A stretch of DNA of 53,415 nucleotides from Lactobacillus sp. ESL0700 (lineage in GTDB: Bacteria > Bacillota > Bacilli > Lactobacillales > Lactobacillaceae). The notes under the pieces were generated by a model. That model saw only the letters and a program-made list of their open reading frames with translations, searched no databases and was not told where the DNA came from. Location: positions 1 to 53,415 of the forward strand of contig NZ_CP113931.1 of NCBI RefSeq assembly GCF_029392095.1, given 5' to 3'. Shown here piece by piece: positions 1-51,224 of the stretch (position 1 is its first letter; the number at the start of each line of letters is the position of its first letter). The translations under genes were made by a program, and so were the position numbers.

Positions 1-579
1 TTTAATCATGGTAAAACTCGAATGCCGTTTGCTCATACTTTCTTAACGGAATTTGACCCACAGATTGATCCTAATTTAGTTAGGGTTGAATGCTTACATA
101 AAGATTTGGACTTAAACAGTTTAAACATTAATTATGTTGATTTTTTGCGTGGAACTGCCAGCCCAGCAGCTGTTGAAGCTTATGAGAATAGTATTGCACC
201 TAAAGAGGTTAAATGTGATAATGATGATGACATCGTGAGACATGTTTTAGAAAAAATAAATGATGAAGCCGGGAAAATAGCAAAGAAGAAAGGAAAAACG
301 AAGATGGACGATATTGAAAATGATGAAAAAGTTTTAGAAAACGTTGTTGATGAACCACTGACACCGGAGCAGGAGGATAAGCGTAGTAATTCAGGGTTTG
401 CTCTATTACTTGAAGATTATCGTGGTAACGGAGTTGATTTTGATTTAGCAAATAAAATCCTTGCCTATTTTGATTCTGGTGATACTCGAAAAGTTAAGAC
501 GTGTTTAAATTCAATTGGAGATGATGATATTAGAGTTAAACTGGATAAGTTATTTACAAAAGAAATAGAAGAAGCCTAG
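1..579 (+). CDS. VirD4/TraG-type T4SS coupling protein, C-terminal part (gene wraps from 51214)
   Basis: These 192 codons are the end of the coupling-protein gene that begins at 51214 and is open to base 53415. The last codon there is complete, and base 1 continues the same frame with Phe-Asn-His-Gly-Lys-Thr-Arg before the first Met at base 22, so the full protein would be 926 aa. This part carries the end of the ATPase domain (the segment HTFLTEFDP is typical of family C-termini) followed by an acidic and lysine-rich tail (about residues 800-860) and a small helical end. Tails of coupling proteins often contact relaxase or secreted substrates; that role here is inference. The stop codon lies inside a terminator hairpin. 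An independent start at 22 is unlikely because no ribosome binding site precedes it. Confidence 0.9.
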   Translation, partial: FNHGKTRMPFAHTFLTEFDPQIDPNLVRVECLHKDLDLNSLNINYVDFLRGTASPAAVEAYENSIAPKEVKCDNDDDIVRHVLEKINDEAGKIAKKKGKTKMDDIENDEKVLENVVDEPLTPEQEDKRSNSGFALLLEDYRGNGVDFDLANKILAYFDSGDTRKVKTCLNSIGDDDIRVKLDKLFTKEIEEA

Positions 580-668: not shown

Positions 669-2921
669 ATGTTGATATTTCGACTGTTGGAACTAGCCGA
701 TGTAGCTCCTACAAATGCTTTACATAGTGCTCTTAATTATTTGAACTATTCAAATATTTTTATTCGTGCATTTTCGATTATGAAGTGGTGGATTGTTCAG
801 ATGATTTATGGCGTGGCCAACGCCTCTAGTGAGTTCATGAATGATATGCTCAATCTATCTAGTTTTGTGAATCAAGTTAATGGTGACGGTCAAGTTGGTA
901 CTTTTATGAAGTGGGCTAGAGAATTGTCAGCTTCATTAGTGATAATTTGTTTAATTTGGATTGCAATTAAAATTATTGTTGATCATCACGCACCTAGAAT
1001 CAAAAATGTTGTAGTACAACTTTTGATAAGCGCTTTTTTGATTACAAATTTGGGTACTATGACAACTTGGCTAACGCAACAATCTGTAGACTTTGCACAA
1101 GGTTTATTGGGTTCAACTTCTTCAAAAATAGATAAAGGAACTAGTGCATTACCTTTTAATATTCTAGCAAGCCATACTAATGACCTGGAATACATGATTG
1201 ATACGAACTTTAAGGGAACTAATGTAAGTTCAGCTAATTCAACGGATAAAGCACCAGCTAAACTACATTGGGGGTTAAATAATTTAAGCCGTAAGAAAGT
1301 TGATGATGGTGAGGTTGACTTTACCGAAGTTTTGGATAACGAAAAAGTAAAAGATGGTTCTGCACTTGAGAAAAAAGATCATCCTTACAAGAAAGGCTCG
1401 TATGATAAAAAGCCTGGTACTCACTTCTTGTATGGTTGGCTGAAATACACTGCTGAAAATACTCCTAAGCAAGATGGTAAAGGCACAACATGGGATACAG
1501 CTGATATTTGGCACCTATTTGGTTTTTCAATTGGTGGTTATCAAAGATTTACAGTTAATTTCTTACCAGTTTTGATTGCCCTGGTTGCTTTAACTTTTGC
1601 CTACTTATTTGCAGGATATGCAATTGTAAAATCATTTATTGATATTGTTGTAATGAATATCTTGGGTACAGTAATTTTTGCGGTTGACTTGGACACTGGC
1701 CAAAAAACTAAGCAAGTAATTAATTCGCTTTGTTCAGCAATCCTTTTAGTTAGTCTGCAAGCCTTTGAATTGGCCTTCTATCAAGCAGCATGTACATGGG
1801 CTAACTCAAGCATTTCAAATGTTTGGGGCTTCTCAATATTTATGTTAGCAGCCACAATTATGTTGATTACTGGTAATGATAAAGTTGCCTTATTCTTCAA
1901 CGTTGATACTGGAGCACAACACGGTTGGCGTGCAGCAGGTTCAGTCGCTTACGGTGCTAGACAATTAGGTCATTTAGGTGCTGCAGTAGCGGGTGTTCCT
2001 GGAAAAGCTAAAAATAAGATGGAAAACTGGGGTGACAAGCATAATACTACCGGTAGCTTGCAACGTGCCGCAAGAAAGCAAGCACAGGCAGGTTCACGTC
2101 AGAATGCCATTAACAAGTTAGCAGGAATGGATTCTAACGGTAATAAGATCACTAATCCAAATACTTCTGGGTCAGGTAGTATTACCGATGTTGGTTCAAC
2201 AGGCATTAAGCAAACACCTAAGGCTCAACAGAAAGCAGAACAAGTTCAAAAACAGGGTGAAAAAGCTTCAAGAGAATCACAATCAGGCCATGATGGCTTT
2301 GCAGGTAAAATGGCTAGTGCTTTTGGTGCTGGTGACGCAATGGCTGCTGCAGAAGCAGCTCAAAGAGTTAAAGATGATCAAGTTGTAGATCGGGCGCAGC
2401 AGCCACAAAGTGACCAAGAAGCACCTAAATCTGACAGTCAAGGTAGCAGTGACGTTGATCCTAGATTTGACGTGCCACTTCCTTCTGAATCAGATATGCC
2501 GATTACTGATCCTGGTAGTTTTAATGAAAATGATATTCCCCCAATTGGAAATGGCTATCAAGATATGCCAACACAGAGTAATCCATTAAGTTCAACTAAT
2601 TTTAATAGTTGGAAGAATAGAGCTAAAGAATATGATACTAGAAACAAATTGACAGAACCTAATTCAACCTATTCGCCAGTTGACTATAATCCGGTTACTA
2701 AACAGCCATATTCTTATGCTGAATGGAAAGATGATGTCAATTCAGTACGAACAAATGATATTCCTAGCCGTAACTTAGATGGTTCTAAATTTAATGCGTC
2801 TAAGAACTTAGAAACTACTTCTATGGATAAACCTGTAAGTACTTATGCTCACGACAATCTAAGTAGAAATTCGCTTACAAATGATTCTGGTTCTACTGTT
2901 CCACCACGTACAAGAAAGTAG
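669..2921 (+). CDS. VirB6/TrbL-like polytopic mating-channel protein
   Basis: 750 aa. Ribosome binding site AGGAG lies just upstream of the ATG. The N-terminal half is strongly hydrophobic: membrane segments near residues 10-60, 90-125 and 125-160, a polar loop (about 160-290), then several more segments (about 290-425). After residue 430 the protein becomes a long hydrophilic, Gln/Ser/Ala-rich tail. This arrangement is that of VirB6/TrbL proteins of Gram-positive conjugation systems, which form the inner-membrane base of the channel. It is followed 8 bases later by the VirB3-like gene and then VirB4, the expected order. The large cytoplasmic tail is a common Gram-positive variation. The family assignment is by topology and context, not by a conserved catalytic motif. 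Confidence 0.75.
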   Translation: MLIFRLLELADVAPTNALHSALNYLNYSNIFIRAFSIMKWWIVQMIYGVANASSEFMNDMLNLSSFVNQVNGDGQVGTFMKWARELSASLVIICLIWIAIKIIVDHHAPRIKNVVVQLLISAFLITNLGTMTTWLTQQSVDFAQGLLGSTSSKIDKGTSALPFNILASHTNDLEYMIDTNFKGTNVSSANSTDKAPAKLHWGLNNLSRKKVDDGEVDFTEVLDNEKVKDGSALEKKDHPYKKGSYDKKPGTHFLYGWLKYTAENTPKQDGKGTTWDTADIWHLFGFSIGGYQRFTVNFLPVLIALVALTFAYLFAGYAIVKSFIDIVVMNILGTVIFAVDLDTGQKTKQVINSLCSAILLVSLQAFELAFYQAACTWANSSISNVWGFSIFMLAATIMLITGNDKVALFFNVDTGAQHGWRAAGSVAYGARQLGHLGAAVAGVPGKAKNKMENWGDKHNTTGSLQRAARKQAQAGSRQNAINKLAGMDSNGNKITNPNTSGSGSITDVGSTGIKQTPKAQQKAEQVQKQGEKASRESQSGHDGFAGKMASAFGAGDAMAAAEAAQRVKDDQVVDRAQQPQSDQEAPKSDSQGSSDVDPRFDVPLPSESDMPITDPGSFNENDIPPIGNGYQDMPTQSNPLSSTNFNSWKNRAKEYDTRNKLTEPNSTYSPVDYNPVTKQPYSYAEWKDDVNSVRTNDIPSRNLDGSKFNASKNLETTSMDKPVSTYAHDNLSRNSLTNDSGSTVPPRTRK

Positions 2922-3856: not shown

Positions 3857-5866
3857 TTGAAAGTTATTGATAAATTTAAGATTTTTGGTAGAAAAGCATT
3901 TTACTCTGAACGTAGTAATCATTTGGGTAAGGACAACAGAAAACAGCTTTTTTCTGCAAGTGATGAACAAAGATTAAAAGCTAAAGGATATGATCTAAAC
4001 TTTATTGCGGCTTATCAGCCACAAGGTGGCGTTCGTTTCTATGATAAATATGCTGCTACTGGGAATTGCTACTTTACCTATTTAACAATAATTGACTATC
4101 GAAAAGACCCGAATCTGTTGTGGCTCTATCAAATTTTTGGTAATGACTTTACACAAGTTAAATTTGATGTTCATACCGAAGAACCAGACAAAGTTAAAAG
4201 CCAACTTAATCGCAGTATTACGGAAAAGCAAGAACAAGCTGGTAAAGGGCGGTATCAGACTGATATGGATACAGCTGATCAAGAACAGCTGGATTTGAGA
4301 GAGTTAGCCAAGCAGTTTAATTCTGGTGCTGAAATACCTAAATCAATTCGTATTCAAATTAAAGTCTATGCTCCCACTCTACCTAAATTAGAAGAACGCA
4401 TGAGTGAGATTGCTCGTGAGTTAAAAGGTGATGGTTATACTGGGGTTGTTTTTCAATTTACGTTGCCGGAACAGTACAAGTCGTGGTATCAAGACTATTC
4501 AGGTCAAAAGCTTTCTTTAGTTGCTCCCACAGCAACAACACTAGGTGCAGCGGTAATTGGAGGGGGTGTGCCTTTTCAAGGCGAAGAATTAATTGATGAT
4601 CATGGTACTCTGATAGGTCACACGTCAACAAATGGCCCGTTTATCTTTGATCGCTTTGCACACACACCGGAAAGAACGTCCTATAATACCCTAGTTTTAG
4701 GGCAAATGGGTTCTGGTAAATCAACTTTTTTGAAAATGAATGAAAAGAGTGATTATGATCGTGGTTACTATGTTCGCCTAATTGATAAGGCTGGTGAATA
4801 TACCAAACTAGTTAAATCGCAAGGTGGGGTTGTCATTAAGCTAGATGGTTCAGAAGGTATGATTAATCCAATGCAAGTTTTAGCGACAGCTACTTCTGAA
4901 ACTGATCAAACGAAAGTTGATGAAATGGCAAGTTTTAGGCAGCATGTGGCCAAACTACTTGTTCTTTTTAGTAACGTGATGAATAACCAACTTGATGAAT
5001 CTACTAAACAGGAGTTTTCATCGCTTCTACAGCATTTTTATGTTGACTGCGGGTTATTACCAGCTGATTGGCAAAAACGCCCAGAGAGCATTCATATTAC
5101 TGGCTTAAAACCAGAAGAATACCCGGTTTTATCTAATTTTAGAGATTATGTAACTAGAATTACTACACCAGAATTTTTAGATAAAATTCATGCAACTGCT
5201 AAAAGACGTAATACCTACGAACAAATAATTATTGCCTTAAATAATATGATTGAGAATTATGCTAATTTATTTGATGGTATTTCTAGTTTGCGAGATTTAA
5301 ACCATACGCAAATTGTTTCTTTTGATACCTCAACGTTATCTAAAATGGATCAAAATATTTATCATGCCCAATTATTCTCTACTTTAAATTTAATTCAGAA
5401 TCAAGCCGTTATTAATGGCCGGCAACAAGTTAATGTACCAGATATTGATCGTCAATACTTTAGTATTTACTTTGATGAGTGCCACAATATCATTAATCCT
5501 AACAACATGATTGCAGTTAACGAAATTGTTAATATGGCTCGAGAATTTCGTAAATATTATGCAGGAATTACACTTGCTACACAGGATTTAGGTGCTATGT
5601 TACCCGATAATGTATCTTCTGCAGACTTAGAAACTTTGAAGTCAATTGTATTGTTCTGTCAGTATAAAGCCACTTTTCGGCATGAAGCAGGACAATTAGA
5701 AAAACTAAATAAGCTTCTGGGTTCTACATTAAGTGAAGCAGATTATGAACAAATTCCTAAACAAGAACAAGGTAAGACAATTATTACCATTGGAACGACT
5801 AAACGGTACCATGTTCAAGTTGAACCAACACAACAAGAATTAGAGCTATTTACTGGAGGACGGTAA
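3857..5866 (+). CDS. VirB4-family T4SS ATPase
   Basis: 669 aa with a TTG start; GGAAGAAGTGG just upstream overlaps the previous stop codon and serves as ribosome binding site. Walker A is GQMGSGKST at residues 282-290 and Walker B is FSIYFDECHN with the acidic pair at D540-E541. The N-terminal 230 residues form the non-ATPase domain that contacts VirB3 and the channel; ATP hydrolysis by the C-terminal RecA-like domain powers pilus or channel assembly and DNA transfer on the inner face of the membrane. It is shorter than many VirB4 proteins, consistent with some N-terminal material lying in the upstream gene. The downstream wall hydrolase follows immediately, so translation is probably coupled. 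Confidence 0.9.
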   Translation: MKVIDKFKIFGRKAFYSERSNHLGKDNRKQLFSASDEQRLKAKGYDLNFIAAYQPQGGVRFYDKYAATGNCYFTYLTIIDYRKDPNLLWLYQIFGNDFTQVKFDVHTEEPDKVKSQLNRSITEKQEQAGKGRYQTDMDTADQEQLDLRELAKQFNSGAEIPKSIRIQIKVYAPTLPKLEERMSEIARELKGDGYTGVVFQFTLPEQYKSWYQDYSGQKLSLVAPTATTLGAAVIGGGVPFQGEELIDDHGTLIGHTSTNGPFIFDRFAHTPERTSYNTLVLGQMGSGKSTFLKMNEKSDYDRGYYVRLIDKAGEYTKLVKSQGGVVIKLDGSEGMINPMQVLATATSETDQTKVDEMASFRQHVAKLLVLFSNVMNNQLDESTKQEFSSLLQHFYVDCGLLPADWQKRPESIHITGLKPEEYPVLSNFRDYVTRITTPEFLDKIHATAKRRNTYEQIIIALNNMIENYANLFDGISSLRDLNHTQIVSFDTSTLSKMDQNIYHAQLFSTLNLIQNQAVINGRQQVNVPDIDRQYFSIYFDECHNIINPNNMIAVNEIVNMAREFRKYYAGITLATQDLGAMLPDNVSSADLETLKSIVLFCQYKATFRHEAGQLEKLNKLLGSTLSEADYEQIPKQEQGKTIITIGTTKRYHVQVEPTQQELELFTGGR

Positions 5867-10975: not shown

Positions 10976-12565
10976 ATGAGTAAAACAAAAATACCTCATA
11001 TTATTTTGACCAGCAAATTTACGTATTCTGTTGCTAGAAGTAAAACTAAAACTGATTATGGAAATTATGCTGTTGATTATATGGGACGAAAAAAAGCAAT
11101 CGAAAATTTAGCTTATTTAACCCCAGAAGAAGAAACTAAATTATTGCAGCGTAAAGCAGAACTTGGAACTGAAAATGAACCATTGCTGCAAAGAGTTAGC
11201 AACTACTCACCCAAATTAAAGGGCGATTCTATTTTAGAAAAAGACAACAAAACCGAATTAGATAAACCCAACTTTTTTGAATTAGACGGTCAAGACTATG
11301 GCAAATATATTGGCTATATGATGCGTAAACAAGCTCTGGCTAGCAAGAAAAAGAGTGAGGGATTATCACAAAAAGAAGAAGCTGAACTTGCTCGTGTAAC
11401 TAAAGGAGCTGCTAAATATGACGCTCCAAATATTGAAGGCAAAAACAAAGTATTGCAGGGCTATTTTTCATCAGATCAGAATACTATTCGCTTAAAAGAT
11501 TTAGGATCCATTCGTCAAAAAATGCGTTCAGCTCAAGCTAACAATTCTGTTCTATGGCAAGACGTAATTAGTTTTGACAATAATTATTTAAGAAAGATGG
11601 GCGTATTTGATCCAACAACTGGTTACTTAGATGAAGCCGGCATTCGTAAAGCAAGTGCTGCGATGATGTCAAATTTAATTAAAGAAGAAAATTTGAATTT
11701 ACCATTTTGGACAGCTTCAATTCATCGCAATACTGACAACATTCATATCCATTTTGCTTTAGTTGAAGGTATAAATTCACGTCCTGAAAAGCATTTTACA
11801 GACAAGCACGGTGTTGAGCACACGGCTCCAACAGGGTGGCGTAAGGCAACTACAATTCATCACATGAAAAGTAACTTTACTGGCACTATGTTTGATACTT
11901 CTTCAATGCTAAAAGAGATGAATTTACAAAGAAATAAAATTACCAAAGGTATGGCTGCTGCATTCGATCAATCACTACAGAAAGAGCCTAGTTTTCAAAA
12001 AGAACTAAATAAATTTGTTAAAACTTTACCCGAAAATACAGCTAAATGGCGCTGGGCAGATTTAAATTCTAACCAACGTAAGCAACTAAATAATTTAGTA
12101 GATTTAACCATGAAAGATAATCCTTCTTATCAGAAATGGAATAATCTTTTTTCAAAATATCAAACTTACTACACAGAAATGTATGGACAATCCAAAGATA
12201 ACAAGAAGAATACTGCAGCCAAAAAATGGGAAGATTTAAAATATCGTGCTGGTAATTCATTATTAAAAGAATTACGAACAGTCACAGAGCAAAGCAATCA
12301 CGCTAGACAAAATTACAGTGAGCTTCGTAAGCAAAGACAACAAGAATTTACTAAAAAGGTTAAGCAGCAGAAGCGAAAAAAAGAACTTGATTTTGCACTT
12401 AAAAAGACCGTTCAACCAACTTTTAGCAAGAATAAGAGCGCTAAAGTTTATAAGCAACTGCAGAATACGAATCAAAAAAATTTTGCTTCGTTTGAAAAGC
12501 AACAAGCACTGACCACCTATGAGCAAGTACAACATGCCATCGATCTTGAAATACAGCAACGTTAA
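10976..12565 (+). CDS. MOBL-type (MobP2) conjugative relaxase
   Basis: 529 aa. The three-histidine metal site is visible as H250 and H257-I-H259 in ASIHRNTDNIHIHFALVE. Candidate nucleophile tyrosines lie in the N-terminal YGNYAVDYMGR (Y28, Y31, Y35), the position used by the MOBL family found with pLS20 and widespread in Firmicutes. The enzyme would nick oriT, stay bound to the 5' end and be passed to the coupling protein. The C-terminal 150 residues are Lys/Gln-rich and helical, probably for DNA or partner binding. It does not carry the AELAAQ tail found on the Fic and LtrC proteins. It is the last gene of the mobilization operon. Confidence 0.85.
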   Translation: MSKTKIPHIILTSKFTYSVARSKTKTDYGNYAVDYMGRKKAIENLAYLTPEEETKLLQRKAELGTENEPLLQRVSNYSPKLKGDSILEKDNKTELDKPNFFELDGQDYGKYIGYMMRKQALASKKKSEGLSQKEEAELARVTKGAAKYDAPNIEGKNKVLQGYFSSDQNTIRLKDLGSIRQKMRSAQANNSVLWQDVISFDNNYLRKMGVFDPTTGYLDEAGIRKASAAMMSNLIKEENLNLPFWTASIHRNTDNIHIHFALVEGINSRPEKHFTDKHGVEHTAPTGWRKATTIHHMKSNFTGTMFDTSSMLKEMNLQRNKITKGMAAAFDQSLQKEPSFQKELNKFVKTLPENTAKWRWADLNSNQRKQLNNLVDLTMKDNPSYQKWNNLFSKYQTYYTEMYGQSKDNKKNTAAKKWEDLKYRAGNSLLKELRTVTEQSNHARQNYSELRKQRQQEFTKKVKQQKRKKELDFALKKTVQPTFSKNKSAKVYKQLQNTNQKNFASFEKQQALTTYEQVQHAIDLEIQQR

Positions 12566-15997: not shown

Positions 15998-18463
15998 ATG
16001 GCAAAAAAAGAATTTAATGGCTGGTTAAATCAGCTATATCACACAAATATTGTAGATTTGTGTAATCAGTTAGGAATTGAACTTACACAAGATGGACGTA
16101 CGTACCGTGGTAAGGAACATGACAGCTTGGTTATCACACCAAATAAAAACTCATTTTATTGGAACTCTCGTCAAGTTGGCGGTACAGGTGGGTTGATGTT
16201 CTTGAAAAAGTACTATCTTGCTGACGATCAACTAAGCAAAAAAGAACTGTATGCAAAATTGCATAAAATTGCTTCTGAAAATAGCCTGATTGAATTTGAT
16301 GAATCAGAACAAACAGCAGAGCCTACTGTTCCCTATGTTTACCCTCAAGAAAATATTGTTGATAATATTAACCAAGCAAAAAACTATTTAAGTGATGAAA
16401 GAAAAATTGCTCCGCAATTCGTTGATTGGCTGCATGATCACGGTTACCTAGATCAAGATAAAATGGATAATGCTATTTTTAAAGAAATTAATCCATTAAC
16501 CGGTGAAATTATTGGTGCTACCAAGCAAGGAACGCACATTGACTTTGACAAGTATCCAAAACGGGGCACATTTAAAGAAATAGATAAAAATTCCACGCAC
16601 AACGCTGCGTGGTTTTTTGATATTGGTAAACCTGAAAATTTACGCTTTTTTGAAAGCCCAATTGACGCTATGTCCTTTTATCAACTTGCTCCAGGCAAAC
16701 TTAAAAATACCCGGTTTGTTTCCATGAATGGTTTAAAAGAACGAGTAGCGTCTACCTATATGACCTTGACCGATTCACAACTAGCAAAAGAAAATTCTGG
16801 AATTAAGTCTATTGCCTTTGGTGTTGATAATGATGAAGCTGGCGACAATTTTATTAAAACAATGCAGCAATACCGCTTTACCAATAATCAAGGAGATAAC
16901 GTCAAGTTGCTTTCAGCACAGCCGAATAAAAAATGGGGTAAAGACTGGAATGATGAACTTAAAGGTATTACCGATTTAAAAGAAAAACAGCAAGAAAAAG
17001 TAGTAACCAAAAGCACTAGTGCAACTACTAAAGTACCGTATGAAGATGAAACCGGGCGAGTAACCGATGAAGCTAGCAAAGAAAAAAAGTTTTACTTGAT
17101 AAATGAAGATGGTAGATATATGACCCACGCAAAATCATTTGATTTTAGTGATCGTGCACCTGGCCCAGTTAGTAATAACACAGTCAAAAGATTGTTAGCT
17201 GGGGCTAAATCTTCTGCAACACTTGAATTTTCTATTGAAGATATTAAGCGACACCAAACATTTAACCAATTACCCCAACATTATCAAAAAATTTTAGTAA
17301 CACCAGAAAGTACCCAGCAGTTAAAAGATATGGTCAACGAAAAACAAGTTAATTTAGAAAATAAGCACAAGTTAGAAAAAAATTTCCCTATTTCTTCTGA
17401 TGTCACCAAAACTTCAATTACAGATTTAATGCAGGACGTACAATCTTATCTTGTTGATCCAGAAAAAACATTACAACTAGCTGATTTTTTAAGTAATTTT
17501 CATGATTACTCCATTCGTAATCGACTACTAATTGCACATCAACGTGAAGGTGCACTAGCCGTGGCCAGCTATAAAAAGTATCAAGAAATGGGTTATTCAG
17601 TTAAACGTGGTGAAAAAGGTATAAAAATTTTAGTACCCGTTCAACTCAAGAAATTTAGCCGGAATGGTAAGGAAATACCACTTAAATACGCTACTAAAGA
17701 AGAAAAGGCTAAAATTAAGGCCGGCAGCATTTCAACTCATACTTCCTTAGGCTTTGTACATGGTAACGTTTTTGATGTTACTCAAACTACTATGCCAAAA
17801 GAGAAATACCCTGAAATGTACCCTAACCGACACCTAGATTTTGATATTAGTAAAGCAACTGATCAACAAAAACTTAATGACAATTTAGACAAATTTGCCA
17901 ATAATATTGGCTTTAAAGTTATTAGAAATTTACCTGATGCAGAGTATAGTCGGAACTTTGGTATATCCAAGGGCGTAACTTTACCAAAACAAAAAATAAT
18001 TTATTTAAATCCTTCTGATACGCCAACTGAAAAAGTTACTACCTTAATGCATGAACTTGGCCATGCTCAACTTCACGATGAAAAATCACAGGCTTCACGC
18101 CCAATTAAGGAACTACAAGCGCAGTTAACCTCCTACCTAGTTGCTAAAAGCTATGGTATTGATAATCATGATTACACAGTAGACTACATCGCAAGTTGGA
18201 CAGATCACGGCAAGAAGCTAAACACGCTAGACGAAAAGTCGCAAGCTGCAATTTTAAATAATGTCACTAAAGCAGCTGACAAAATGATTAGCTCTATAGA
18301 TGGTAGAGATAAAAGCCTAACTACTTCTATGACTATGAAGCAAACGCCTCAACGTAAAGTAAGGCAATCTACTACTACACAACAAACTGTTAATCAAAAT
18401 ATGCTGGCAGCACAATTTGCTCAACAGCAACAAGTGCAACAACGTGGTCTTGAACTTGGTTAA
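15998..18463 (+). CDS. LtrC-like multidomain protein: primase/Toprim, ArdC-type ssDNA-binding and zinc metallopeptidase
   Basis: 821 aa. The N-terminal part (about 1-100) resembles the primase-associated DUF3991-type region; a Toprim-like domain has FFESPIDAMSFY near 216 and FGVDNDEAGDNF near 273. The second half begins with an ArdC-like N-terminal domain (about 470-600; SNFHDYSIRNRLLIAHQ) and ends with a metallopeptidase-like domain carrying MHELGHAQLH near 684. ArdC proteins protect incoming plasmid DNA from restriction, and ArdC is related to the transported part of the RP4 TraC1 primase, so delivery to the recipient is plausible. The last 25 residues (NMLAAQFAQQQQVQQRGLELG) resemble the tail shared by three downstream Fic proteins. 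Confidence 0.8.
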   Translation: MAKKEFNGWLNQLYHTNIVDLCNQLGIELTQDGRTYRGKEHDSLVITPNKNSFYWNSRQVGGTGGLMFLKKYYLADDQLSKKELYAKLHKIASENSLIEFDESEQTAEPTVPYVYPQENIVDNINQAKNYLSDERKIAPQFVDWLHDHGYLDQDKMDNAIFKEINPLTGEIIGATKQGTHIDFDKYPKRGTFKEIDKNSTHNAAWFFDIGKPENLRFFESPIDAMSFYQLAPGKLKNTRFVSMNGLKERVASTYMTLTDSQLAKENSGIKSIAFGVDNDEAGDNFIKTMQQYRFTNNQGDNVKLLSAQPNKKWGKDWNDELKGITDLKEKQQEKVVTKSTSATTKVPYEDETGRVTDEASKEKKFYLINEDGRYMTHAKSFDFSDRAPGPVSNNTVKRLLAGAKSSATLEFSIEDIKRHQTFNQLPQHYQKILVTPESTQQLKDMVNEKQVNLENKHKLEKNFPISSDVTKTSITDLMQDVQSYLVDPEKTLQLADFLSNFHDYSIRNRLLIAHQREGALAVASYKKYQEMGYSVKRGEKGIKILVPVQLKKFSRNGKEIPLKYATKEEKAKIKAGSISTHTSLGFVHGNVFDVTQTTMPKEKYPEMYPNRHLDFDISKATDQQKLNDNLDKFANNIGFKVIRNLPDAEYSRNFGISKGVTLPKQKIIYLNPSDTPTEKVTTLMHELGHAQLHDEKSQASRPIKELQAQLTSYLVAKSYGIDNHDYTVDYIASWTDHGKKLNTLDEKSQAAILNNVTKAADKMISSIDGRDKSLTTSMTMKQTPQRKVRQSTTTQQTVNQNMLAAQFAQQQQVQQRGLELG

Positions 18464-18464
18464 T

Positions 18465-18506
18465 TTATACCAAAAATGTTATATTTTGTTTCAAATGTGG
18501 TATAAT
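18465..18506 (+). promoter_or_regulatory. Promoter and inverted-repeat operator of the Fic operon
   Basis: TATAAT at 18501-18506 with a weak TTATAT -35 box at 18479-18484 (16-bp spacer). The perfect inverted repeat TTATACCA / TGGTATAA (18465-18472 and 18498-18505) brackets the promoter and covers the -10 box. The HTH protein encoded next is the obvious candidate repressor. Confidence 0.65.
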
Positions 18507-18546
18507 ATAAGCAATGGAAAAAGTGATTATTTATGGAGGTAACCGC

Positions 18547-18969
18547 ATGACCACAGTTATTTATAAGCTTTTAGAAAATAAAAATATTTCACTAAACGAA
18601 GTCGCTAGAAAAAGTAGTGTTCCTGTAACTACTCTTGCTAATGCTGCAAAAAAGCCAATTGAAGCCTGGACTATCCGAATTTTAAATGCTTTTGCATTGG
18701 GATTAGATGAATTACCTAGTCATTTATTAGTCAAATTACAGCCTAAAACTTATCAATTAAAAATTAGTGACGATGAACAAAAAATTCAGGGTGTTTACAT
18801 TCCTGACAAATTAACCTATTACCAGATCAGATCAGTTGTAGAAGCTAGTCATCTAGAAGGCTGGAACCCTCAACCTAAAGATATTCAATACCTAGTAAAT
18901 AAAGCTTACAATCCTGATCCTGAATTAGAAAAAGAATACGAAGAAATTTTTGGAGCTAACAATGAGTGA
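18547..18969 (+). CDS. HTH regulator, possible antitoxin or repressor of the Fic operon
   Basis: 140 aa from ATG 18547, preceded by a strong GGAGGT. Residues 12-36 (NISLNEVARKSSVPVTTLANA) are a Cro/XRE-like helix-turn-helix. The C-terminal part ends with a helical acidic segment (DPELEKEYEEIFG). The final codons overlap the first Fic gene by 8 bases, as usual for antitoxin-toxin pairs. I looked for the Fic inhibitory motif [ST]xxxE[GN]; SHLEGW is close but one residue short, so direct FicA-like inhibition is not shown. The inverted repeat at its promoter supports autoregulation. Confidence 0.65.
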   Translation: MTTVIYKLLENKNISLNEVARKSSVPVTTLANAAKKPIEAWTIRILNAFALGLDELPSHLLVKLQPKTYQLKISDDEQKIQGVYIPDKLTYYQIRSVVEASHLEGWNPQPKDIQYLVNKAYNPDPELEKEYEEIFGANNE

Positions 18970-19642
18970 TTGGATAAAAGATACGCTATATAGCAATGGT
19001 GTGCTTAAAAACAAATTTCATATTCATGATCCAAAGTTATTGGAAGAAATAGAATATCGTGAATCCAACGAAAGGGCTTTACTAATTTTACAAAAGCAAC
19101 CTAAAATTAAAGACATTAGTTACTTAGCTAAAATTCATAAGTTCATGTTTAATTCTTTGTATGATTGGGCAGGAGAATATCGTCCCGGTAATTTCCAAAA
19201 AAATGGTTATGAATTTTTTGATCATTCAAGATTTGAATTTGCAGAGCAAAATATTAATTCAATTATGAAGCAGCAGCCTACCAAAGAACCTTTGCAGGTC
19301 GAAGATTATGCTAAATTGCTTGATGAGATTAACTTCATGCACCCGTTTAGAGAGGGCAATGGTCGTAGTACCAAAACCTTTTTACAAGCATACGCCGCTA
19401 ACCATGAACAGGTCTTAGATTACCCTCGACAAAATGATGAAATGATCCAGGCTCAAAATGAAGCTGATGTTAAGCATATTTCACGCTTACTCAAGGTTCA
19501 AAACTCTCCAACTAGGGAAGTAGCTTTTAAAACTTTAGTTAAGCAACATAAAGAAAGACAAACTGAAACTTTATCACAAGCCGAACTTGCTGCACAGTAT
19601 GAAGCCCAAAAGCAGCAACAAAAAGGACTTGAATTAGAATAG
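18962..19642 (+). CDS. Fic-domain protein 1 with conserved Fic motif and shared C-terminal tail
   Basis: 226 aa from ATG 18962 (GGAG at 18952-18955); a TTG at 18950 is part of the ribosome binding site region. The Fic core shows DWAGEYRPGN (about 68-77) and the active-site loop HPFREGNGRSTK at residues 127-138: catalytic His, acidic residue and the GNGR anion-binding turn are intact, the last Arg of the usual motif being Lys. Such proteins transfer AMP or other phosphate-containing groups to target proteins. No N-terminal inhibitory motif is seen, so control may come from a partner, perhaps the HTH protein upstream. The tail SQAELAAQYEAQKQQQKGL recurs on Fic 2 and Fic 3. Confidence 0.88.
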   Translation: MSDWIKDTLYSNGVLKNKFHIHDPKLLEEIEYRESNERALLILQKQPKIKDISYLAKIHKFMFNSLYDWAGEYRPGNFQKNGYEFFDHSRFEFAEQNINSIMKQQPTKEPLQVEDYAKLLDEINFMHPFREGNGRSTKTFLQAYAANHEQVLDYPRQNDEMIQAQNEADVKHISRLLKVQNSPTREVAFKTLVKQHKERQTETLSQAELAAQYEAQKQQQKGLELE

Positions 19643-19654
19643 AAGTTTAAAAGT

Positions 19655-19846
19655 ATGACAATGACTAACGAGGAAAAACAAGAGCGTGCTAATCACCATA
19701 CCCAATCTCATGACGAACAAATTTGTGAATGGTGTGGTAAACAATTTAAAACAGGCAATGTTGTGTACGAAGATATTACTGGTAACTATTACTGCACGAT
19801 TAAGCACTTTAAGATGGCACTGGGTCTTGAAAAGACTAAGTTATAA
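19655..19846 (+). CDS. Small zinc-ribbon-like protein within the Fic operon
   Basis: 63 aa (or 61 from the second ATG). CEWCGKQF followed by YYCTIKHF gives a CxxC...CxxxH set suitable for one zinc ion. It is hydrophilic, lacks a membrane segment and sits between Fic 1 and Fic 2 with short gaps on both sides. It does not carry the shared tail. Function unknown; a nucleic-acid or protein-binding adaptor is possible. Confidence 0.55.
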   Translation: MTMTNEEKQERANHHTQSHDEQICEWCGKQFKTGNVVYEDITGNYYCTIKHFKMALGLEKTKL

Positions 19847-19870
19847 TAATTAGTCAGAAGGTAATTAAAA

Positions 19871-20725
19871 ATGGAATACAAAGACAAATTTCAACTTACT
19901 CCAGAAGAAAATCGTCGTTTTGCTAAAACGAATTTAACCAAGCTAGTTTTCACTAATTCACGTTTTGAAGGCTTAACTACCACTCTGCCACAAACACAAA
20001 CTATTATTGATGGTATGGGCGTTAATGGTGTATCAGTTGATGATATTAACGTTATCGTACAATTAAAGCGTGGCTGGCAACTAGCTATCAATTATGATCA
20101 ACCGTTTGGCTTAGATTTTGAAAAAGAAATAAATAAGATTGTCGCACGTGATACCGCTGCTTTTCCAGGTTATTTACGCAACGGTTCAGGTGGTGTAGAA
20201 ACCTATCGTGGTGAATTTACGCCACCAATGATCAATGAACAGAAAGAAAAGAGCTTTTTAAACTCTATTTTAAATAGTGATCGTTCTGCCACTGATAAGG
20301 CAATGACCGTAATGTACCACAACATGCGGCAACAAATGTTTTATGATGGCAACAAGCGAACGGCCACTATTGCCGCTAACAAAATTATGATCGAAAATGG
20401 TGCTGGCTTAATCAATATACCTTTAGATCAATGGCCTACTTGGAACCAAAAAATAGCTGATTACTACTTTTCAAATGATATGTCAGATTTAAAAGATTGG
20501 ACTTATCAAACTGGGATTTCAGGTATTGAGCCTAATATACTTGCTCGTTCTCAAAATAAAGTAACTAAAATTTCTCACCAAGAACAGCAAGTAAACAACG
20601 CTGAATTTAAACAACTGCTCAAAGACAGCCGCAAAGAGAATACTCAAGCCGAATTAGCGGCACAATATGAAGCACAAAAGCAGCAGCAAAAAGAACTTGA
20701 ACAAGATGGCCCTGAATTAGAATAG
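19871..20725 (+). CDS. Fic-like protein 2 with Gln in place of the catalytic His, plus shared tail
   Basis: 284 aa. The Fic signature is altered: QMFYDGNKRTAT at residues 155-166, where the catalytic His is Gln and GNGR is GNKR, similar to the ANKR of Doc kinases in the second half. A NSRFEG segment (29-34) sits where class II Fic proteins have their inhibitory [ST]xxxEG helix, with Asn at the first position. I recall a broad family of Fic/DOC-like proteins with such a QxFxDGNKR loop, so this may be family-typical and not a decay product. It may be non-catalytic or use different chemistry. It ends with AELAAQYEAQKQQQKELEQDG, close to the tail of Fic 3. Confidence 0.8.
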   Translation: MEYKDKFQLTPEENRRFAKTNLTKLVFTNSRFEGLTTTLPQTQTIIDGMGVNGVSVDDINVIVQLKRGWQLAINYDQPFGLDFEKEINKIVARDTAAFPGYLRNGSGGVETYRGEFTPPMINEQKEKSFLNSILNSDRSATDKAMTVMYHNMRQQMFYDGNKRTATIAANKIMIENGAGLINIPLDQWPTWNQKIADYYFSNDMSDLKDWTYQTGISGIEPNILARSQNKVTKISHQEQQVNNAEFKQLLKDSRKENTQAELAAQYEAQKQQQKELEQDGPELE

Positions 20726-20735
20726 AGGTGCATTT

Positions 20736-21680
20736 ATGAATTACCAAGATCAACTTAAACAAATTACAAAGTTAAAAGAAAAAATGGACACATATCGGCC
20801 ACTTTCACCGTTAGAAATTAAGCGGCTAGAAAAAAATATTCGGATTGAACATGTGTGGTCATCAGCTGCAATTGAAGGTAACACTTTATCTAAAAATGAA
20901 ACTGCTGCTATCATTGATAGTGGTATCGGTGCTACAATTCACGGAAAAACCATTAAAGAAACGCTAGAAATCATCAATTTAAGTCAGGCGTACACTTATA
21001 TGAAAGATTTGGCTACCAAAAAGCAGCCAATAAGATTAGACGATATTAGAAATCTTAATCGTATATCTACCTTAGAAACAATTGAACCAAAATCAGAAGC
21101 AGGAAACTATCGTACCATCGACGTTTATCCTTATGGTACCGATAAACGCCCCTATGCTTCACCATTCGATATTCCAGATGAAATGGAAAAATTACAAAAT
21201 TGGAGTGATCAAGCGAGAACTAAGCTTCACCCTGTCCAATATGCAACTGATTTACACCAGAAGTTTGTAACAATTCACCCATTTAGAGATGGCAATGGAC
21301 GAACTGCAAGATTGTTAATGAATTTGGTATTAACTGAAAATGGGTATCCGGTAATTAATGTTAATCCTTCAAAAAAAGCCAGAGATAACTATATGACAGC
21401 CTTAGCCACAGCAGAGGCACCGGAAAATGATCCACAACCATTTAGAGAATTAATCGCTAATTATGTTGAAGAAGAATTAGACAGCAGAATTAAGACCCTG
21501 CAGTTAAATGAAAAATATACCCAAGAAGCAAAAGAGTCATTTAACCGCAGCGGAATAGACTGGAAAAGTTTAGAAAAGGAAAGCAAAGAAAAACTTTCGC
21601 AAGCCGAATTAGCGGCACAATTTGAAACACAAAAACAGCGGCAAAAAGGGCTTGAACAAAATGGCCCCGAATTAGAATAG
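20736..21680 (+). CDS. Class II Fic protein 3 (self-inhibited AMP-transferase type) with shared tail
   Basis: 314 aa, AGAGGTG before the ATG. The inhibitory helix motif S43-A-A-I-E47-G48-N lies in the N-terminal domain and the catalytic loop HPFRDGNGRTAR at 181-192 is fully canonical, so this should be an active, self-regulated Fic enzyme that AMPylates (or otherwise modifies) target proteins. It is fused at the end to the tail SQAELAAQFETQKQRQKGL followed by EQNGPELE, nearly the same as in Fic 2. The core family normally needs no such tail, which suggests a separate function for it, for example export or localisation. Confidence 0.88.
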   Translation: MNYQDQLKQITKLKEKMDTYRPLSPLEIKRLEKNIRIEHVWSSAAIEGNTLSKNETAAIIDSGIGATIHGKTIKETLEIINLSQAYTYMKDLATKKQPIRLDDIRNLNRISTLETIEPKSEAGNYRTIDVYPYGTDKRPYASPFDIPDEMEKLQNWSDQARTKLHPVQYATDLHQKFVTIHPFRDGNGRTARLLMNLVLTENGYPVINVNPSKKARDNYMTALATAEAPENDPQPFRELIANYVEEELDSRIKTLQLNEKYTQEAKESFNRSGIDWKSLEKESKEKLSQAELAAQFETQKQRQKGLEQNGPELE

Positions 21681-24587: not shown

Positions 24588-24612
24588 AAAGAAGCATAAT
24601 TGCTTCTTTTTT
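24586..24612 (+). terminator. Terminator after the topoisomerase gene
   Basis: AAAAAGAAGCA / TGCTTCTTTTT stem (24586-24596 and 24601-24611) with a TAAT loop; it overlaps the stop codon. The A-rich left arm makes it potentially bidirectional. Confidence 0.75.
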
Positions 24613-24630
24613 GTTTAGTCAAAACGTTAT

Positions 24631-24659
24631 GCAGCTATATCTTTATAGCTGCTTTTTTT
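24631..24659 (+). terminator. Terminator hairpin before the surface metzincin gene
   Basis: GCAGCTATA / TATAGCTGC stem (24631-24639 and 24644-24652) followed by TTTTTTTA. The ribosome binding site GGAAAGG of the next gene begins at 24665, so no promoter fits between. Confidence 0.75.
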
Positions 24660-24682
24660 ATATTGGAAAGGTTCATGTAATC

Positions 24683-26287: not shown

Positions 26288-26299
26288 GAAGGAAGTAAT

Positions 26300-27128
26300 A
26301 TGAACTTAAAACCTTTCACTAAATGGGTCGGAGGTAAAACTAAACTGCTACCTGAACTCAAAGAAATAGTACCTATTAATTACAATCGATACTATGAACC
26401 CTTTATTGGTGGTGGCGCATTATTCTTTTCTTTGCAGCCTAAAATAGCAACTATTAACGACATGAATCAAGAACTTGTTAATGTTTACCGAGTAATTAAA
26501 GAGCAACCAACTCAACTTTTAGCCTTATTGCAGCAACATCAAGAAAAAAATTCGAAAGAATATTTCTTAAAAATTCGTTCTTTAGATCGCATTGCTGAAC
26601 CCGCTTACACAATCGGGGGGGTAGAACGTGCTGCCAGAATTTTATATCTGCTAAAGACTGATTTTAATGGGCTATATCGTGTTAATTCTAAAGGACAATT
26701 TAACGCTCCCTACGGGCGCTATAAAAATCCTAAAATTGCTAATAAAGACAATATTCTAGCTATCAGCAAATATCTTAATACAGCTCAAATAAAAATTTTG
26801 AGTGGTGACTTTCAAAAAGCGGTGCAAACTGCAGGCTTCCATGATCTAATATATTTCTGATCCTCCGTATATTCCTAAATCTGCAACAGCAAATTTCACT
26901 TCATATACAGCCCAGGGCTTCACAATGACAGAGCAAAGACGTTTACGTGACGTCTTTTTTTCTTGCGCCAAGAAAGGAGCATACGTTATGCTTAGTAATT
27001 CTGACACCCAGCAAACTAGAGAGTTATACAAGAATGCAAATATTCATCAAGTTTTTACCAACAGGGCAATTAATTCTGATCCTAAAAAGCGAGGGAAAAT
27101 TGCTGAATTACTAATTACTAATTTTTAA
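26300..27128 (+). pseudogene. D12-class adenine-N6 DNA methyltransferase (Dam/DpnM-like) split by a frameshift
   Basis: The first frame (26300-26860) carries FTKWVGGKTKLLPEL (SAM-binding FxGxK motif) and EPFIGGGALFF, then stops right after HDLIYF. One extra base (the T of TTC-T-GAT near 26858-26861) shifts the frame; in the +1 frame it resumes at once with the catalytic motif DPPY and FTSYTAQGFTMTEQRRLRD and runs to 27128 (LLITNF). The joined product would be about 275 aa, the normal length. No long homopolymer is present at the break, so simple slippage is not obvious. A methylase protecting GATC sites would be useful in recipients; here it is probably inactive or a sequencing error. Confidence 0.85.
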
Positions 27129-27140
27129 ACAAAATAAAAG

Positions 27141-27178
27141 ACCTACTTCTCACCATTGTGTGAGAAGTAGGCCTTTTT
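27141..27178. terminator. Bidirectional terminator between the methylase remnant and parR
   Basis: Perfect 12-bp stem CCTACTTCTCAC / GTGAGAAGTAGG (27142-27153 and 27160-27171), A-rich on the left and TTTTT on the right. It lies between convergent transcription units. Confidence 0.85.
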
Positions 27179-27201
27179 ATTTCTAACTTTTCTACTTGAT
27201 T

Positions 27202-48499: not shown

Positions 48500-48802
48500 A
48501 TGAATTTTTTAAGTAATCTTTTGTTAAAAGGACAATTATTTTTAGCTAAGGCTCCAAGCGGCAGTGCAGTAACTAATCCGATCGATAAGGCCAATACTGC
48601 AATTAGTGGCGTACAAGGTAGTTTGACAAAATTAGGTGTTACATTATCGATTATTATGTTGATCGTGGCTGGTATTGCCTGGTTCTTTGGTCGTGCAGGT
48701 TCAGCTTTTGCTAAAAAGATTATGGGTGGCTGTTTCATTGGTGCTGCCGTAATTGCTTTAGCAACATCAATTGTTCCGTGGGTAATGAGTATTTTTGCCT
48801 AA
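48500..48802 (+). CDS. VirB2/TrbC-like pilin or channel subunit
   Basis: 100 aa, AAGGAG before the ATG. N-terminal signal-like region (about 1-20; NLLLKGQLFLAKAPSG), then two membrane segments (about 46-64 and 74-97) joined by a short basic loop AGSAFAKK. This size and layout match VirB2-type subunits, often the first gene of a T4SS operon. In Gram-positive systems such proteins form a membrane-embedded or short extracellular conduit. The coiled-coil protein gene follows at 48831. Confidence 0.75.
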   Translation: MNFLSNLLLKGQLFLAKAPSGSAVTNPIDKANTAISGVQGSLTKLGVTLSIIMLIVAGIAWFFGRAGSAFAKKIMGGCFIGAAVIALATSIVPWVMSIFA

Positions 48803-48830: not shown

Positions 48831-51224
48831 ATGAGCAAAATTAGATTTTTGAACGTTCCTAGAAAAGTAAGAAGTTTGCTTAACGGCAAACGCTTTGCTT
48901 CAAATAGTAAATCATTGGATTTGATTACCGCTAATAAAAAAGTTAAAGCGCTGGCCAAAAAACTTAATGCTGATCAAAAGATAAACCTTAATTTAGAAAT
49001 TGAACCTGATAAGGATAAGAAGCAAGTTTTTACAGTTTCTAATATCTATATTGAACATGATGATGAACAATTGGGGTTACGTCGTATTGCCGATCGAATT
49101 GTGCTCGATTCTACTGTTGATCAAAAAGAAAGTGAAAGCAGATTAAAACTAGCCGATTTAATCGAAGCAGAATTAAAAGATGATGACCCCGAATCTGATT
49201 CTCAAAATGTAGGTTCAGATATGGATTATATGTTTTCTAAAAAGACTGAAAAAAGTATTGAAGAACATGTAATTGAAAAAGATGAAAAAGAAAGAGATAC
49301 AAATGAAAAAACAAATGATGAACGCTCCATAGGGGGCGTTACCCCTCAAGATACTGCTGCTGACACGAGCATTCAGAGGCCAAGTTCAGATGAAAGTAAT
49401 ACAGTTGACCATGAAAACACCGTAGAATCTTCATTAAAGGCAAATCCTAATCCTAGCTCTTTTTTACCTAACCAGGAAGATTTAAAGACGTATTCTGAAA
49501 ATGAAATTAATTTATCTACTACTAAGTCGCAGGAAGTAATTAGTAAGTCGAAATATATTGCTGAAAAAAATCTTTTTCAAGCGGTTCCGGATAAAAATTC
49601 AAAAGCTGTTTTTGATTTGCAAGATATAAAGAAACGCTTGGGGTATGTTGATGATCCACAAGATGAATATCAACAAAGATTAAATAGATTAATCGATCGT
49701 GATATTGAAAAATGCCATTTAAAAAATGCTGCTAACATATTTGAAAAAGAAGCAAGTAAATTAAAGCAAGATTCTATTACTCGTTTAGCTAAGTCCTATG
49801 ATGAAGTTAATAAATCACTACTTACTGAAACTGTTGAAGGTTTAGCCGGCAATGATCTAAAAGAAAACATGGGAGCAGCTTCAAAAGAAAAAGCTGATAC
49901 TGAACAAATTGTTTTGGACAAAAAGGAAGCTAAGTTAAAAGAGCTAAGAGATGAAGCAGCCAAAAGAATAGCAGAAGCTAGCGATCGTATTAATGCTGAA
50001 ATCAAACACCGGGAAGATACTTTTAACCAAGAGCAAAATCATTGGCTAGAAAAAAGAAAAAGTCAAATTGATACTGAATTAAAGCAGAAAAACCTTGCTA
50101 CTAAAGAGAAATATCGTGCTAAAGAAATTCAAAAACGTAATTTAAAACTGCAGGATATTCACCAACAGGTTGAAAACACTTATGCTAACAGTTTAAATAA
50201 GCTTTTTACCAGACATCAGAATGCCTTTGCTACTAACTTGGTACATTTAGAACGTAGCGTGCAAGCTCAAGCTAAACAAGTTGCTAGACAAAAACAGAAA
50301 GATGATAAACAGCAGGCTATGCTGGATCAACAGAAAGCTAAAGTTACAGCAATTAATCGTTCAAATGAATTAAAAGAACAAGAATTAAAGTATCGCCAAA
50401 AGCATGATCAACAATATCCAGAAGATTTTGCCAAAACTGTATCAGACGGTCTAAAAAAGGCAATTAAAGAAGCATTGGCTGATCAACAGAAAACGGCTAA
50501 AAAAGATGAAGATGTTGAAAAGCTTCTACTTGAAGAAGCTTTTGCTAAATATTTAGGTATAGATGGTATAGATAATCCAACAGAAATAGAAAAATCTGAT
50601 GGAGTAAAACAAGAAGATGAGATAAAACATAAACCTCATTCTAAATTTAAAAAGCGAATTGCTGGTATTACTGTGGGCACGTTGGCTGTAGCGATTTTAG
50701 CAGCTGGCGGTTATGAAATATATGCTAAAGAGAATAGTCAACCAGATTTGAGTGAATTAGTGGCCAAGAATCAATATTTTGGTTCTACACCACATGTTTC
50801 TAAGCCTAAAAAAGACGTGATCAAAAGTAGTAGAGCTAATAAGCAAAACAAAAAAGTTAAAAAAGTAACTAGCAAGCATACTAAGCCTAAAAAAGCAAAA
50901 GCACCTGTTAAAGCCGGTGACAGTAACGTTATTAGATACCACTCTACTAATAGCTGGTCAGCTAAAGTTGATGTTCTTGATGGGGCTTTAGGACAAGGCG
51001 ATATTAGGGCATTAAAGGAAATAAACGATTACCATTCTACTTGGATTAGTAGACTGTACTACGCTATTGCTGCCAACGATGAATCTAAGATCAGAAAAAT
51101 TTACTTAAAGATCACTCCGAACGAAAAGCAAGAACTTAGTGCAGCTGCTAAACATGCGATTGCTTTAGCCTTTTATAATGTTCATGATTGGAATAACGGT
51201 TGGAAGGCAAGAAATGGCTATTAA
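48831..51224 (+). CDS. Large coiled-coil membrane protein of the transfer operon
   Basis: 797 aa, GAGGGAG upstream. Residues 1-110 form a folded N-terminal domain; 110-250 are acidic and disordered (SDESNTVDHENTVESS). A long charged coiled coil extends from about 285 to 570 (for example EAKLKELRDEAAKRIAEAS). A single membrane segment lies near 608-630 (AGITVGTLAVAILAAGGYEI), followed by a Lys-rich stretch and a small domain (about 700-797). Its end overlaps the coupling-protein start by 11 bases. Position and topology suggest a scaffold linking the cytoplasmic substrate complex with the channel. Family not recognised. Confidence 0.6.
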   Translation: MSKIRFLNVPRKVRSLLNGKRFASNSKSLDLITANKKVKALAKKLNADQKINLNLEIEPDKDKKQVFTVSNIYIEHDDEQLGLRRIADRIVLDSTVDQKESESRLKLADLIEAELKDDDPESDSQNVGSDMDYMFSKKTEKSIEEHVIEKDEKERDTNEKTNDERSIGGVTPQDTAADTSIQRPSSDESNTVDHENTVESSLKANPNPSSFLPNQEDLKTYSENEINLSTTKSQEVISKSKYIAEKNLFQAVPDKNSKAVFDLQDIKKRLGYVDDPQDEYQQRLNRLIDRDIEKCHLKNAANIFEKEASKLKQDSITRLAKSYDEVNKSLLTETVEGLAGNDLKENMGAASKEKADTEQIVLDKKEAKLKELRDEAAKRIAEASDRINAEIKHREDTFNQEQNHWLEKRKSQIDTELKQKNLATKEKYRAKEIQKRNLKLQDIHQQVENTYANSLNKLFTRHQNAFATNLVHLERSVQAQAKQVARQKQKDDKQQAMLDQQKAKVTAINRSNELKEQELKYRQKHDQQYPEDFAKTVSDGLKKAIKEALADQQKTAKKDEDVEKLLLEEAFAKYLGIDGIDNPTEIEKSDGVKQEDEIKHKPHSKFKKRIAGITVGTLAVAILAAGGYEIYAKENSQPDLSELVAKNQYFGSTPHVSKPKKDVIKSSRANKQNKKVKKVTSKHTKPKKAKAPVKAGDSNVIRYHSTNSWSAKVDVLDGALGQGDIRALKEINDYHSTWISRLYYAIAANDESKIRKIYLKITPNEKQELSAAAKHAIALAFYNVHDWNNGWKARNGY

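Follow-up and report, generated by a model that had tools for sequence, protein, structure and literature searches.

Four genes at positions 15998 to 21680 of a plasmid of Lactobacillus sp. ESL0700 encode an LtrC-like protein and three Fic proteins (Fic1, Fic2, and Fic3) that end in related tails of 22 to 27 residues. We propose that this tail is a short C-terminal signal by which the plasmid's own Gram-positive conjugative type IV secretion system (T4SS) would recruit toxin-antitoxin (TA) toxins and anti-restriction/primase proteins; we give this reading a probability of roughly 0.6, and it is the best supported of those considered. All coordinates refer to the window, that is, the whole 53,415-nucleotide stretch of DNA that was analysed. 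The stretch from 15998 to 21680 is 100% identical to plasmid NZ_CP113923.1 (circular, 53,415 bp) of Lactobacillus sp. ESL0731, whose host is the stingless bee Scaptotrigona polysticta.

Related tails on LtrC-like, Fic, and zeta proteins

15998..18463, + strand: LtrC-like protein, 821 aa, tail at its end (Pfam DUF3991, Toprim_2, ArdC N-terminal, and M78/zincin; translation)
18392..18460, + strand: LtrC tail NQNMLAAQFAQQQQVQQRGLELG, diverged (translation; tail alignment)
18962..19642, + strand: Fic1, 226 aa as annotated (230 aa for the open reading frame [ORF] from 18950), motif HPFREGNGR (Pfam; Protein Data Bank [PDB] relatives including VbhT)
19574..19639, + strand: Fic1 tail SQAELAAQYEAQKQQQKGLELE (translation)
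19871..20725, + strand: Fic2, 284 aa, Fic/Doc family (Pfam; homologues)
20642..20722, + strand: Fic2 tail TQAELAAQYEAQKQQQKELEQDGPELE (translation)
20736..21680, + strand: Fic3, 314 aa, with a HPFRDGNGRTAR motif (Pfam; translation)
21597..21677, + strand: Fic3 tail SQAELAAQFETQKQRQKGLEQNGPELE (translation)

Translation shows the related tails at all four C-termini, as the original prediction had held. The tail strings it gave were correct in their letters, but those for Fic1, Fic2, and Fic3 stopped short of the terminal G[LP]EL(E), which is the most widely kept part; the true ends are GLELG (LtrC), GLELE (Fic1), DGPELE (Fic2), and NGPELE (Fic3). Likeness among the Fic tails exceeds chance, because whole Fic1, searched against the genome, matches Fic2 and Fic3 over the tail region alone (query residues 184 to 228 and 194 to 228; E values of 8.2e-5 and 1.5e-4).

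A sister plasmid in Lactobacillus sp. ESL0679 (G055:C19; 54,265 bp) carries a block in which five genes are tailed, those for LtrC, Fic1, a zeta toxin, Fic2, and Fic3; a small gene without a tail separates LtrC from Fic1, and a further short stretch precedes the zeta gene. The zeta toxin (PF06414, E = 6.7e-10) ends in SQAELAAQYEAQKQQQKGLEQDGLEL; thus, three unrelated folds (toprim/ArdC, Fic, and zeta kinase) bear the tail.

The claim that the tails differ at synonymous sites also held, and their codon differences are mainly of this kind. Over 19 codons of six Fic/zeta tails, the proportion of nonsynonymous differences (pN) was below that of synonymous differences (pS) in 15 of 15 pairs (pS, 0.18 to 0.83; pN, 0 to 0.09; weakest contrast, 0.18 versus 0.09); the LtrC tail, clearly more diverged, was left out of this count. 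The Fic and zeta tails are under purifying selection. At the DNA level, these six tails are 81 to 96% identical, and the values for window Fic1 versus sister zeta (96%) and window Fic2 versus Fic3 (89%) indicate that tails were copied between genes. Such copying would suit the view that the shared 3' ends are a functionless by-product of duplication or gene conversion. We consider this highly improbable: the excess of synonymous change speaks against it, as do the retention of LAAQF and GLEL in the diverged LtrC tail and the sharing of other tails by the same protein classes in other elements, described below.

The AELAAQ stretch is a feature of this lineage. An exact scan of an 84,980-genome collection for DNA encoding QAELAAQ[YF]E found 15 contigs. 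On the sister plasmid there are four matches, each 16 to 17 residues from a C-terminus; on the other 14 contigs, the match was in frame but internal in 13 (at least 53 residues from the end) and in no closed ORF in one. Wide occurrence on chromosomal proteins lacking a T4SS, named in the original prediction as the result that would overturn it, was therefore not seen for the exact core, which is C-terminal on 1 of 15 contigs. A hidden Markov model (HMM) built from the four window tails, run over 397 Lactobacillaceae genomes, recovered those tails (E values of 8.4e-13 to 4.6e-11) and nothing beyond the same strain better than 1.5e-3; the matches listed do not include the sister plasmid's genome. 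A tblastn search of plasmids with tail peptides gave no matches and missed even the source plasmid, and is hence uninformative. Because the AELAAQ stretch is lineage restricted, attention moved to the terminal residues.

More diverged relatives retain ends of the same kind. Related tails are found on Fic relatives in four genomes (G031, G030, G025, and G007), SQAELAQKYAEQQEKEQQGLDRDDSLGLD and KKQQGLDRDDGLEL among them; a further one, SQAELAKKYAEQQEKEQQELGNDGLEL, ends a 110-aa ORF that resembles the 3' part of a Fic2 gene. Among the 120 Fic2 homologues listed of 313, many stop near the core, untailed, and several are tailed (DGPEL, HDGGLEL, NNLEL, NNNMEL, NDLER, NELDR, QQGLDR, and NGLDRE). Such ends occur on 7 of 45 LtrC homologues, drawn from 8,000 scored candidates and including the window's own: GLELG, EEGLERD, EEDGLELE (twice), DNGLELL, DQGLEL, and EQGLAR. 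One zeta homologue among the 120 listed of 897 ends in SRGLDR; the Pfam zeta search was over-inclusive (301 of 301 genomes matched) and was not used for counts.

C-termini of cargo classes and relaxases in other elements

Different tails are shared by the same classes elsewhere. Of 301 Lactobacillaceae genomes, 36 encode MobP2 relaxases, and from 47 MobP2 rows we took 39 stretches (≤20 kb) around relaxases, picked regardless of tails. In one genome so chosen (G161), 4 of the 23 ORFs in the stretch end in KG[LM]ER(E/N): a DUF3991-toprim protein (KQKGLERE), an ArdC protein (AQKGMER), and two AbiEii proteins (NKGLER and KLKGMERN). A K(R/C)KSKER end is common to a Fic and a toprim protein both in G096 and on the Lactobacillus salivarius ZLp4b plasmid, where the ends are TKCKSKER (Fic), NKRKSKER (toprim), SVAKER (ArdC), and GRSMDR (relaxase). 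On Lactobacillus sakei pFAM18311_1, which was picked as a Fic3 homologue match and so is not a blind case, 5 of 47 ORFs end in ER or ERx: three Fic proteins (NEFER, NNLER, and SSERQ), a toprim protein (QNIER), and an ADP-ribosyltransferase (ART; QQFERD). No such end is present on the topoisomerases or the VirB4 and VirD4 proteins examined in these elements.

Tail-sharing is almost confined to the LtrC, Fic, zeta, and AbiEii-type classes. Nonhomologous protein pairs with a shared C-terminus (score of ≥28) numbered 12 of 47,546 within a genome or plasmid versus 27 of 1,716,959 between genomes, a rate about 16-fold higher within. Pairs joined within the Fic/zeta/AbiEii/LtrC class made up 11 of the 12 within-genome pairs and 7 of the 27 between-genome pairs, while the class accounts for 137 of the 47,546 within-genome pairs compared. 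Seven of the 11 link different folds; the other four each join two Fic proteins too divergent for BLASTP to relate, hence still one fold. The 11 pairs are not independent: six involve the window lineage (five of them the sister plasmid), one involves the related G031, and a single tail is common to G096 and ZLp4b.

The C-termini of these classes also resemble those of relaxases, the expected T4SS substrates. With a profile of the last eight residues of 23 relaxases from the 39 stretches, 21 LtrC proteins were separated from 514 other ORFs with an area under the curve (AUC) of 0.86 (p = 1.7e-8), and 19 machinery proteins scored 0.38. A profile from 33 relaxases, set against 1,247 other ORFs, gave 0.81 for LtrC (n = 42), 0.75 for Fic (n = 40), 0.94 for zeta/AbiEii (n = 4), and 0.40 for machinery (n = 32); omission of window-lineage LtrC and Fic proteins, with the training relaxases kept unchanged, gave 0.83 for LtrC (n = 37) and 0.80 for Fic (n = 26), against 0.49 to 0.67 in windows further in. 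For LtrC and Fic in the full set, the AUC dropped to 0.51 to 0.64, in some cases still significant, when windows further from the C-terminus were used. The last residue is Arg in 15/33 relaxases, 21/42 LtrC, and 11/40 Fic proteins, compared with 1/32 machinery proteins and 68/1,247 other ORFs; Lys, unlike Arg, is not enriched there. Proteins were assigned to classes by phmmer after the targets had been trimmed of their last 25 residues (whole proteins in the 23-relaxase test). ORFs of <70 aa were dropped from the mechanical ORF calls, and the profile tests also dropped ORFs of <120 aa (classes) or <90 aa (others), with no length limit for classes in the 23-relaxase test, and C-termini ≥70% alike over 20 residues. 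The "other" ORFs are mechanical rather than curated, and a few are probably cargo (the L273 ART protein and the second AbiEii of L109).

The profile was also informative in other Lactobacillales families. Across 25 loci (the over-cut-off MobP2 rows outside Lactobacillaceae), with 332 other ORFs, the AUC was 0.78 for relaxases (n = 24), 0.72 for LtrC (n = 30; p = 5e-5), 0.997 for two toxins (a Fic ending in DDLER and an AbiEii ending in REMER), and 0.47 for machinery (n = 37). Among those 24 relaxases are the ends EQGLIR, REYGLDL, REQGFEM, and NQEMER, of the same kind as those of the cargo. A regular expression written after the tails had been seen, whose counts are descriptive only, matched 11/69 relaxases, 7/74 LtrC proteins, 16/58 toxins, 1/75 machinery proteins, and 11/1,553 others. 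Fic proteins with the tail-end pattern, itself chosen after looking, were more frequent on contigs with transfer genes (17/26) than on fetched stretches without them (5/21; Fisher p = 0.008).

A number of results weigh against recruitment by a T4SS. The window relaxase ends in HAIDLEIQQR, without the AELAAQ tail, and lies outside the relaxase C-terminal profile. In a test with the relaxases of the two window-lineage plasmids left out of training, it stood at the 25th percentile of the 1,247 other ORFs, and the window tails at the 82nd (LtrC), 86th (Fic1), 85th (Fic2), and 87th (Fic3); the sister zeta tail reached the 98.7th. From these values, relaxase-likeness is a class property across elements and modest for the window tails. 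It is strongest for the Arg-ending tails of other elements and uneven there: the L268 ArdC and L273 ART proteins are at the 64th percentile and the second AbiEii of G161 at the 56th. Relaxase and LtrC ends are not significantly more alike within an element than across elements (19 pairs, p = 0.14), and in the other families Arg ends are scarce on relaxases (4/24) beside LtrC (13/30) and others (23/332). Many plasmid Fic proteins are untailed. The chromosome of the same strain also has a Fic3-like remnant (L067:9742-10089; tail HMM, E = 4.7e-6), whose tail is AQAELAAQYETQKVLKQDGPKLE. Tailed Fic proteins on fetched stretches that lack transfer genes (the 5 of 21 above, and those ending in SLGLD in G030, on a 2.0-Mb contig, and in G031) need explaining, either as remnants or as users of another element's T4SS. 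By residue count, the Fic1 to Fic3 tails are net acidic, whereas the signals of some T4SSs are described as positively charged. Finally, the likeness is partly compositional: composition alone gave an AUC of 0.77, versus 0.86 for the last-eight profile. This last point would also favor a chance or compositional likeness of polar C-termini, which we regard as the least probable of the readings considered, given the excess of sharing within genomes and its concentration in one functional class, the higher scores of the last eight residues than of windows further in, and the agreement across families.

The untailed, off-profile relaxase would fit with the tail being a docking or oligomerization peptide for a common donor-side partner (a hub, a membrane site, or the relaxosome), with no export; all tail bearers lie within one gene block, and Q/E/K-rich tails would suit coiled-coil contacts. 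However, the same classes are tailed with different sequences elsewhere, and, for the classes as a whole, it is the terminal residues, not the stretch before, that resemble relaxase C-termini; we therefore judge a docking role unlikely. The weight of the last residues in the profile tests is also what one would expect of a C-terminal stability or degradation tag setting toxin and ArdC levels, since a protease could recognize such short endings on several toxins. Against this, toprim/ArdC proteins are tailed as well although they do not belong to the TA toxins, and a relaxase-like end has no obvious link to proteolysis; we consider such a tag improbable. The short Gram-positive T4SS export signal of the original prediction thus gained from the zeta tail, from tail-sharing elsewhere, and from a relaxase-likeness of the classes that extends to other families; it lost ground on the only moderate likeness of the window tails, on the plasmid's own relaxase, and on the tailed Fic proteins whose fetched DNA lacks transfer genes.

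Proposed recruitment and related systems

The plasmid that carries the tails also encodes a conjugation system, including a coupling protein, and its presumed Fic1 antitoxin lies between the LtrC and Fic1 genes:

51214..53415 (first part) and 1..579 (last part), + strand: VirD4-like coupling protein, CD1115 family, spanning the window start (record annotation 25126-27906 mapped to the window)
669..2921, + strand: pLS20_p028 family conjugation transmembrane protein, untailed (profile search; C-terminus inspected)
3857..5866, + strand: VirB4-type conjugation ATPase, untailed (profile search; C-terminus inspected)
10976..12565, + strand: MobP2 family relaxase, the expected T4SS substrate (NCBIfam MobP2, 4.9e-89; Pfam MobL)
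18547..18969, + strand: 140-aa protein annotated as an XRE regulator, overlapping the Fic1 start, putative Fic1 antitoxin (record annotation; gene order)
48500..48802, + strand: TrbC/VirB2 family protein (record annotation)

The PLSDB typing of the plasmid as nonmobilizable is odd beside these transfer genes.

From the C-terminal comparisons we infer a route that runs from key residues and VirD4 binding to translocation and an effect in the recipient. The critical part would probably be the last four to eight residues, G[LP]EL(E/G) here and GLER, xLER, or SKER in related elements, with counterparts in some relaxases (GLIR, GLDL, EMER, and SMDR); a Q/E/K-rich spacer (AELAAQYEAQKQQQ) would lie upstream. 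Once copied from gene to gene, the tail would have been retained by selection. The VirD4-like coupling protein would load its bearers (the ArdC/toprim LtrC and Fic proteins here; zeta, AbiEii, and ART proteins elsewhere), which would then pass into the recipient together with the relaxase-DNA complex or alongside it. Until then, toxins in the donor would each be held by an untailed antitoxin, such as the presumed Fic1 partner, which overlaps the Fic1 start and ends in GANNE. In the recipient, LtrC would counter restriction, protect and prime the incoming strand, and help second-strand synthesis. Toxins arriving without their antitoxins would act immediately and hold or kill recipients in which the plasmid fails to establish. 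The net effect would be addiction from the moment of transfer.

C-terminal T4SS signals on TA toxins are already known, and the Gram-positive tail version appears to be new. In Harms et al. 2017 (PMC5675462), VbhT of Bartonella (Fic plus BID) and PezT-BID of Chelativorans plasmid 1 are TA toxins with a T4SS module, a recipient-acting role of this kind is proposed for both, and T4SS signals are said to be mostly short and notoriously hard to predict. The likeness lies in Fic and PezT/zeta-type TA toxins on conjugative plasmids with an additional C-terminal module that recurs across toxin types. Fic1 has a FicT/VbhT-type Fic domain (Pfam Fic, 1.1e-9; VbhT chains 3zcb, 3shg, and 3zc7, E values of 6e-14 to 1.2e-13) and matches the NCBIfam VbhT model at 6.7e-18, but with 65 bits against a cut-off of 800. 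Pfam finds the Fic domain alone, and no BID domain, in the three Fic proteins. Unlike VbhT, the candidate signal here is Gram-positive and consists of a tail of 22 to 27 residues; tails of other elements also occur on ArdC/toprim, AbiEii, and ART proteins.

Among Vir-type and Dot/Icm substrates, short C-terminal signals include the last 19 to 37 residues of VirF and the E-block (review, PMC10025392). The tail is likewise short, C-terminal, weakly conserved, and portable; it differs in that the Fic tail of the window lineage is acidic and Q-rich with a G-[LP]-E-L end, and those of other elements often end in Arg. The same review describes XVIPCD of the Xanthomonas killing T4SS as a C-terminal recruitment module of antibacterial effectors; at about 120 residues, XVIPCD is domain-sized and belongs to a Gram-negative killing system. 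Polyvalent proteins of conjugative elements and phages are predicted to enter the recipient with DNA (Iyer et al. 2017; PMC5512222, in part). They share zincin, primase, and ART domains with the tailed proteins, and the tailed L. sakei ART protein matches Pfam ART-PolyVal; of the four tailed window proteins, only LtrC has such an architecture (ArdcN, Peptidase_M78, Toprim_2, and DUF3991), whereas the Fic proteins are single-domain. Here, separate proteins share one tail, a case not described in the sections of PMC5512222 seen. No Gram-positive tail of this kind was described in the literature searched, as judged mostly from titles and abstract openings.

A recent review of T4SSs notes with surprise that almost every known function of the Gram-positive systems is limited to DNA transfer; it treats effector translocation by them as a long-standing question with one strong case, in Streptococcus suis (PMC12857230). 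If plasmid toxins and anti-restriction proteins do bear a C-terminal code, this question would become directly testable in harmless lactic acid bacteria, and the presence of several toxin genes next to LtrC would be explained. It would also mean that T4SS effectors have evolved once more by the Fic/zeta route, beyond the Gram-negative examples. More tentatively, and with odds we place a little short of even, Gram-positive conjugation systems of the MobP2/VirD4-CD1115 type may routinely inject effectors by means of a C-terminal code of about four to eight residues like that of many relaxases. If so, the code would mark ArdC/toprim proteins together with toxins or effectors from four or more folds (Fic, zeta, AbiEii, and ART), and effectors would be predictable from the C-terminus.

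Neighbouring genes and minor observations

The putative Fic1 antitoxin is untailed (C-terminus EEIFGANNE). It matched no Pfam family and no FicA, and a PDB search gave two hits (best E = 0.72), neither relevant. It holds an HLEGWNP stretch, present in relatives too, which we take to recall the inhibitory helix of FicA antitoxins. Fic2 has QMFYDGNKR (QIFWDGNKR in one homologue) at the position where active Fic/Doc proteins have His, and its subfamily may be unable to AMPylate or may act in another way.

On an L. paragasseri plasmid typed as mobilizable, a Fic (L270:1499-2320) near a MobQ relaxase shares with zeta loci (L183 to L190) a longer tail, approximately NPE(I/V)KPKN(N/D)PENKNDRPSY. Candidate further substrates are four small unlabelled proteins encoded in relaxase loci, with the ends EQGLEL (L280:46-396), SHGLER (L276:8036-8476), DNGFER (L101:6020-6532), and IEDLER (L288:10883-11446); the L101 and L288 proteins match no Pfam family over the cut-off.

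Sortase and isopeptide-forming pilin-like proteins (38207-47994), perhaps mating adhesins, adjoin the transfer genes of the window, and a protein that combines an SlpA surface-layer domain with a matrixin-type metallopeptidase (24611-26287) adjoins a topoisomerase gene.

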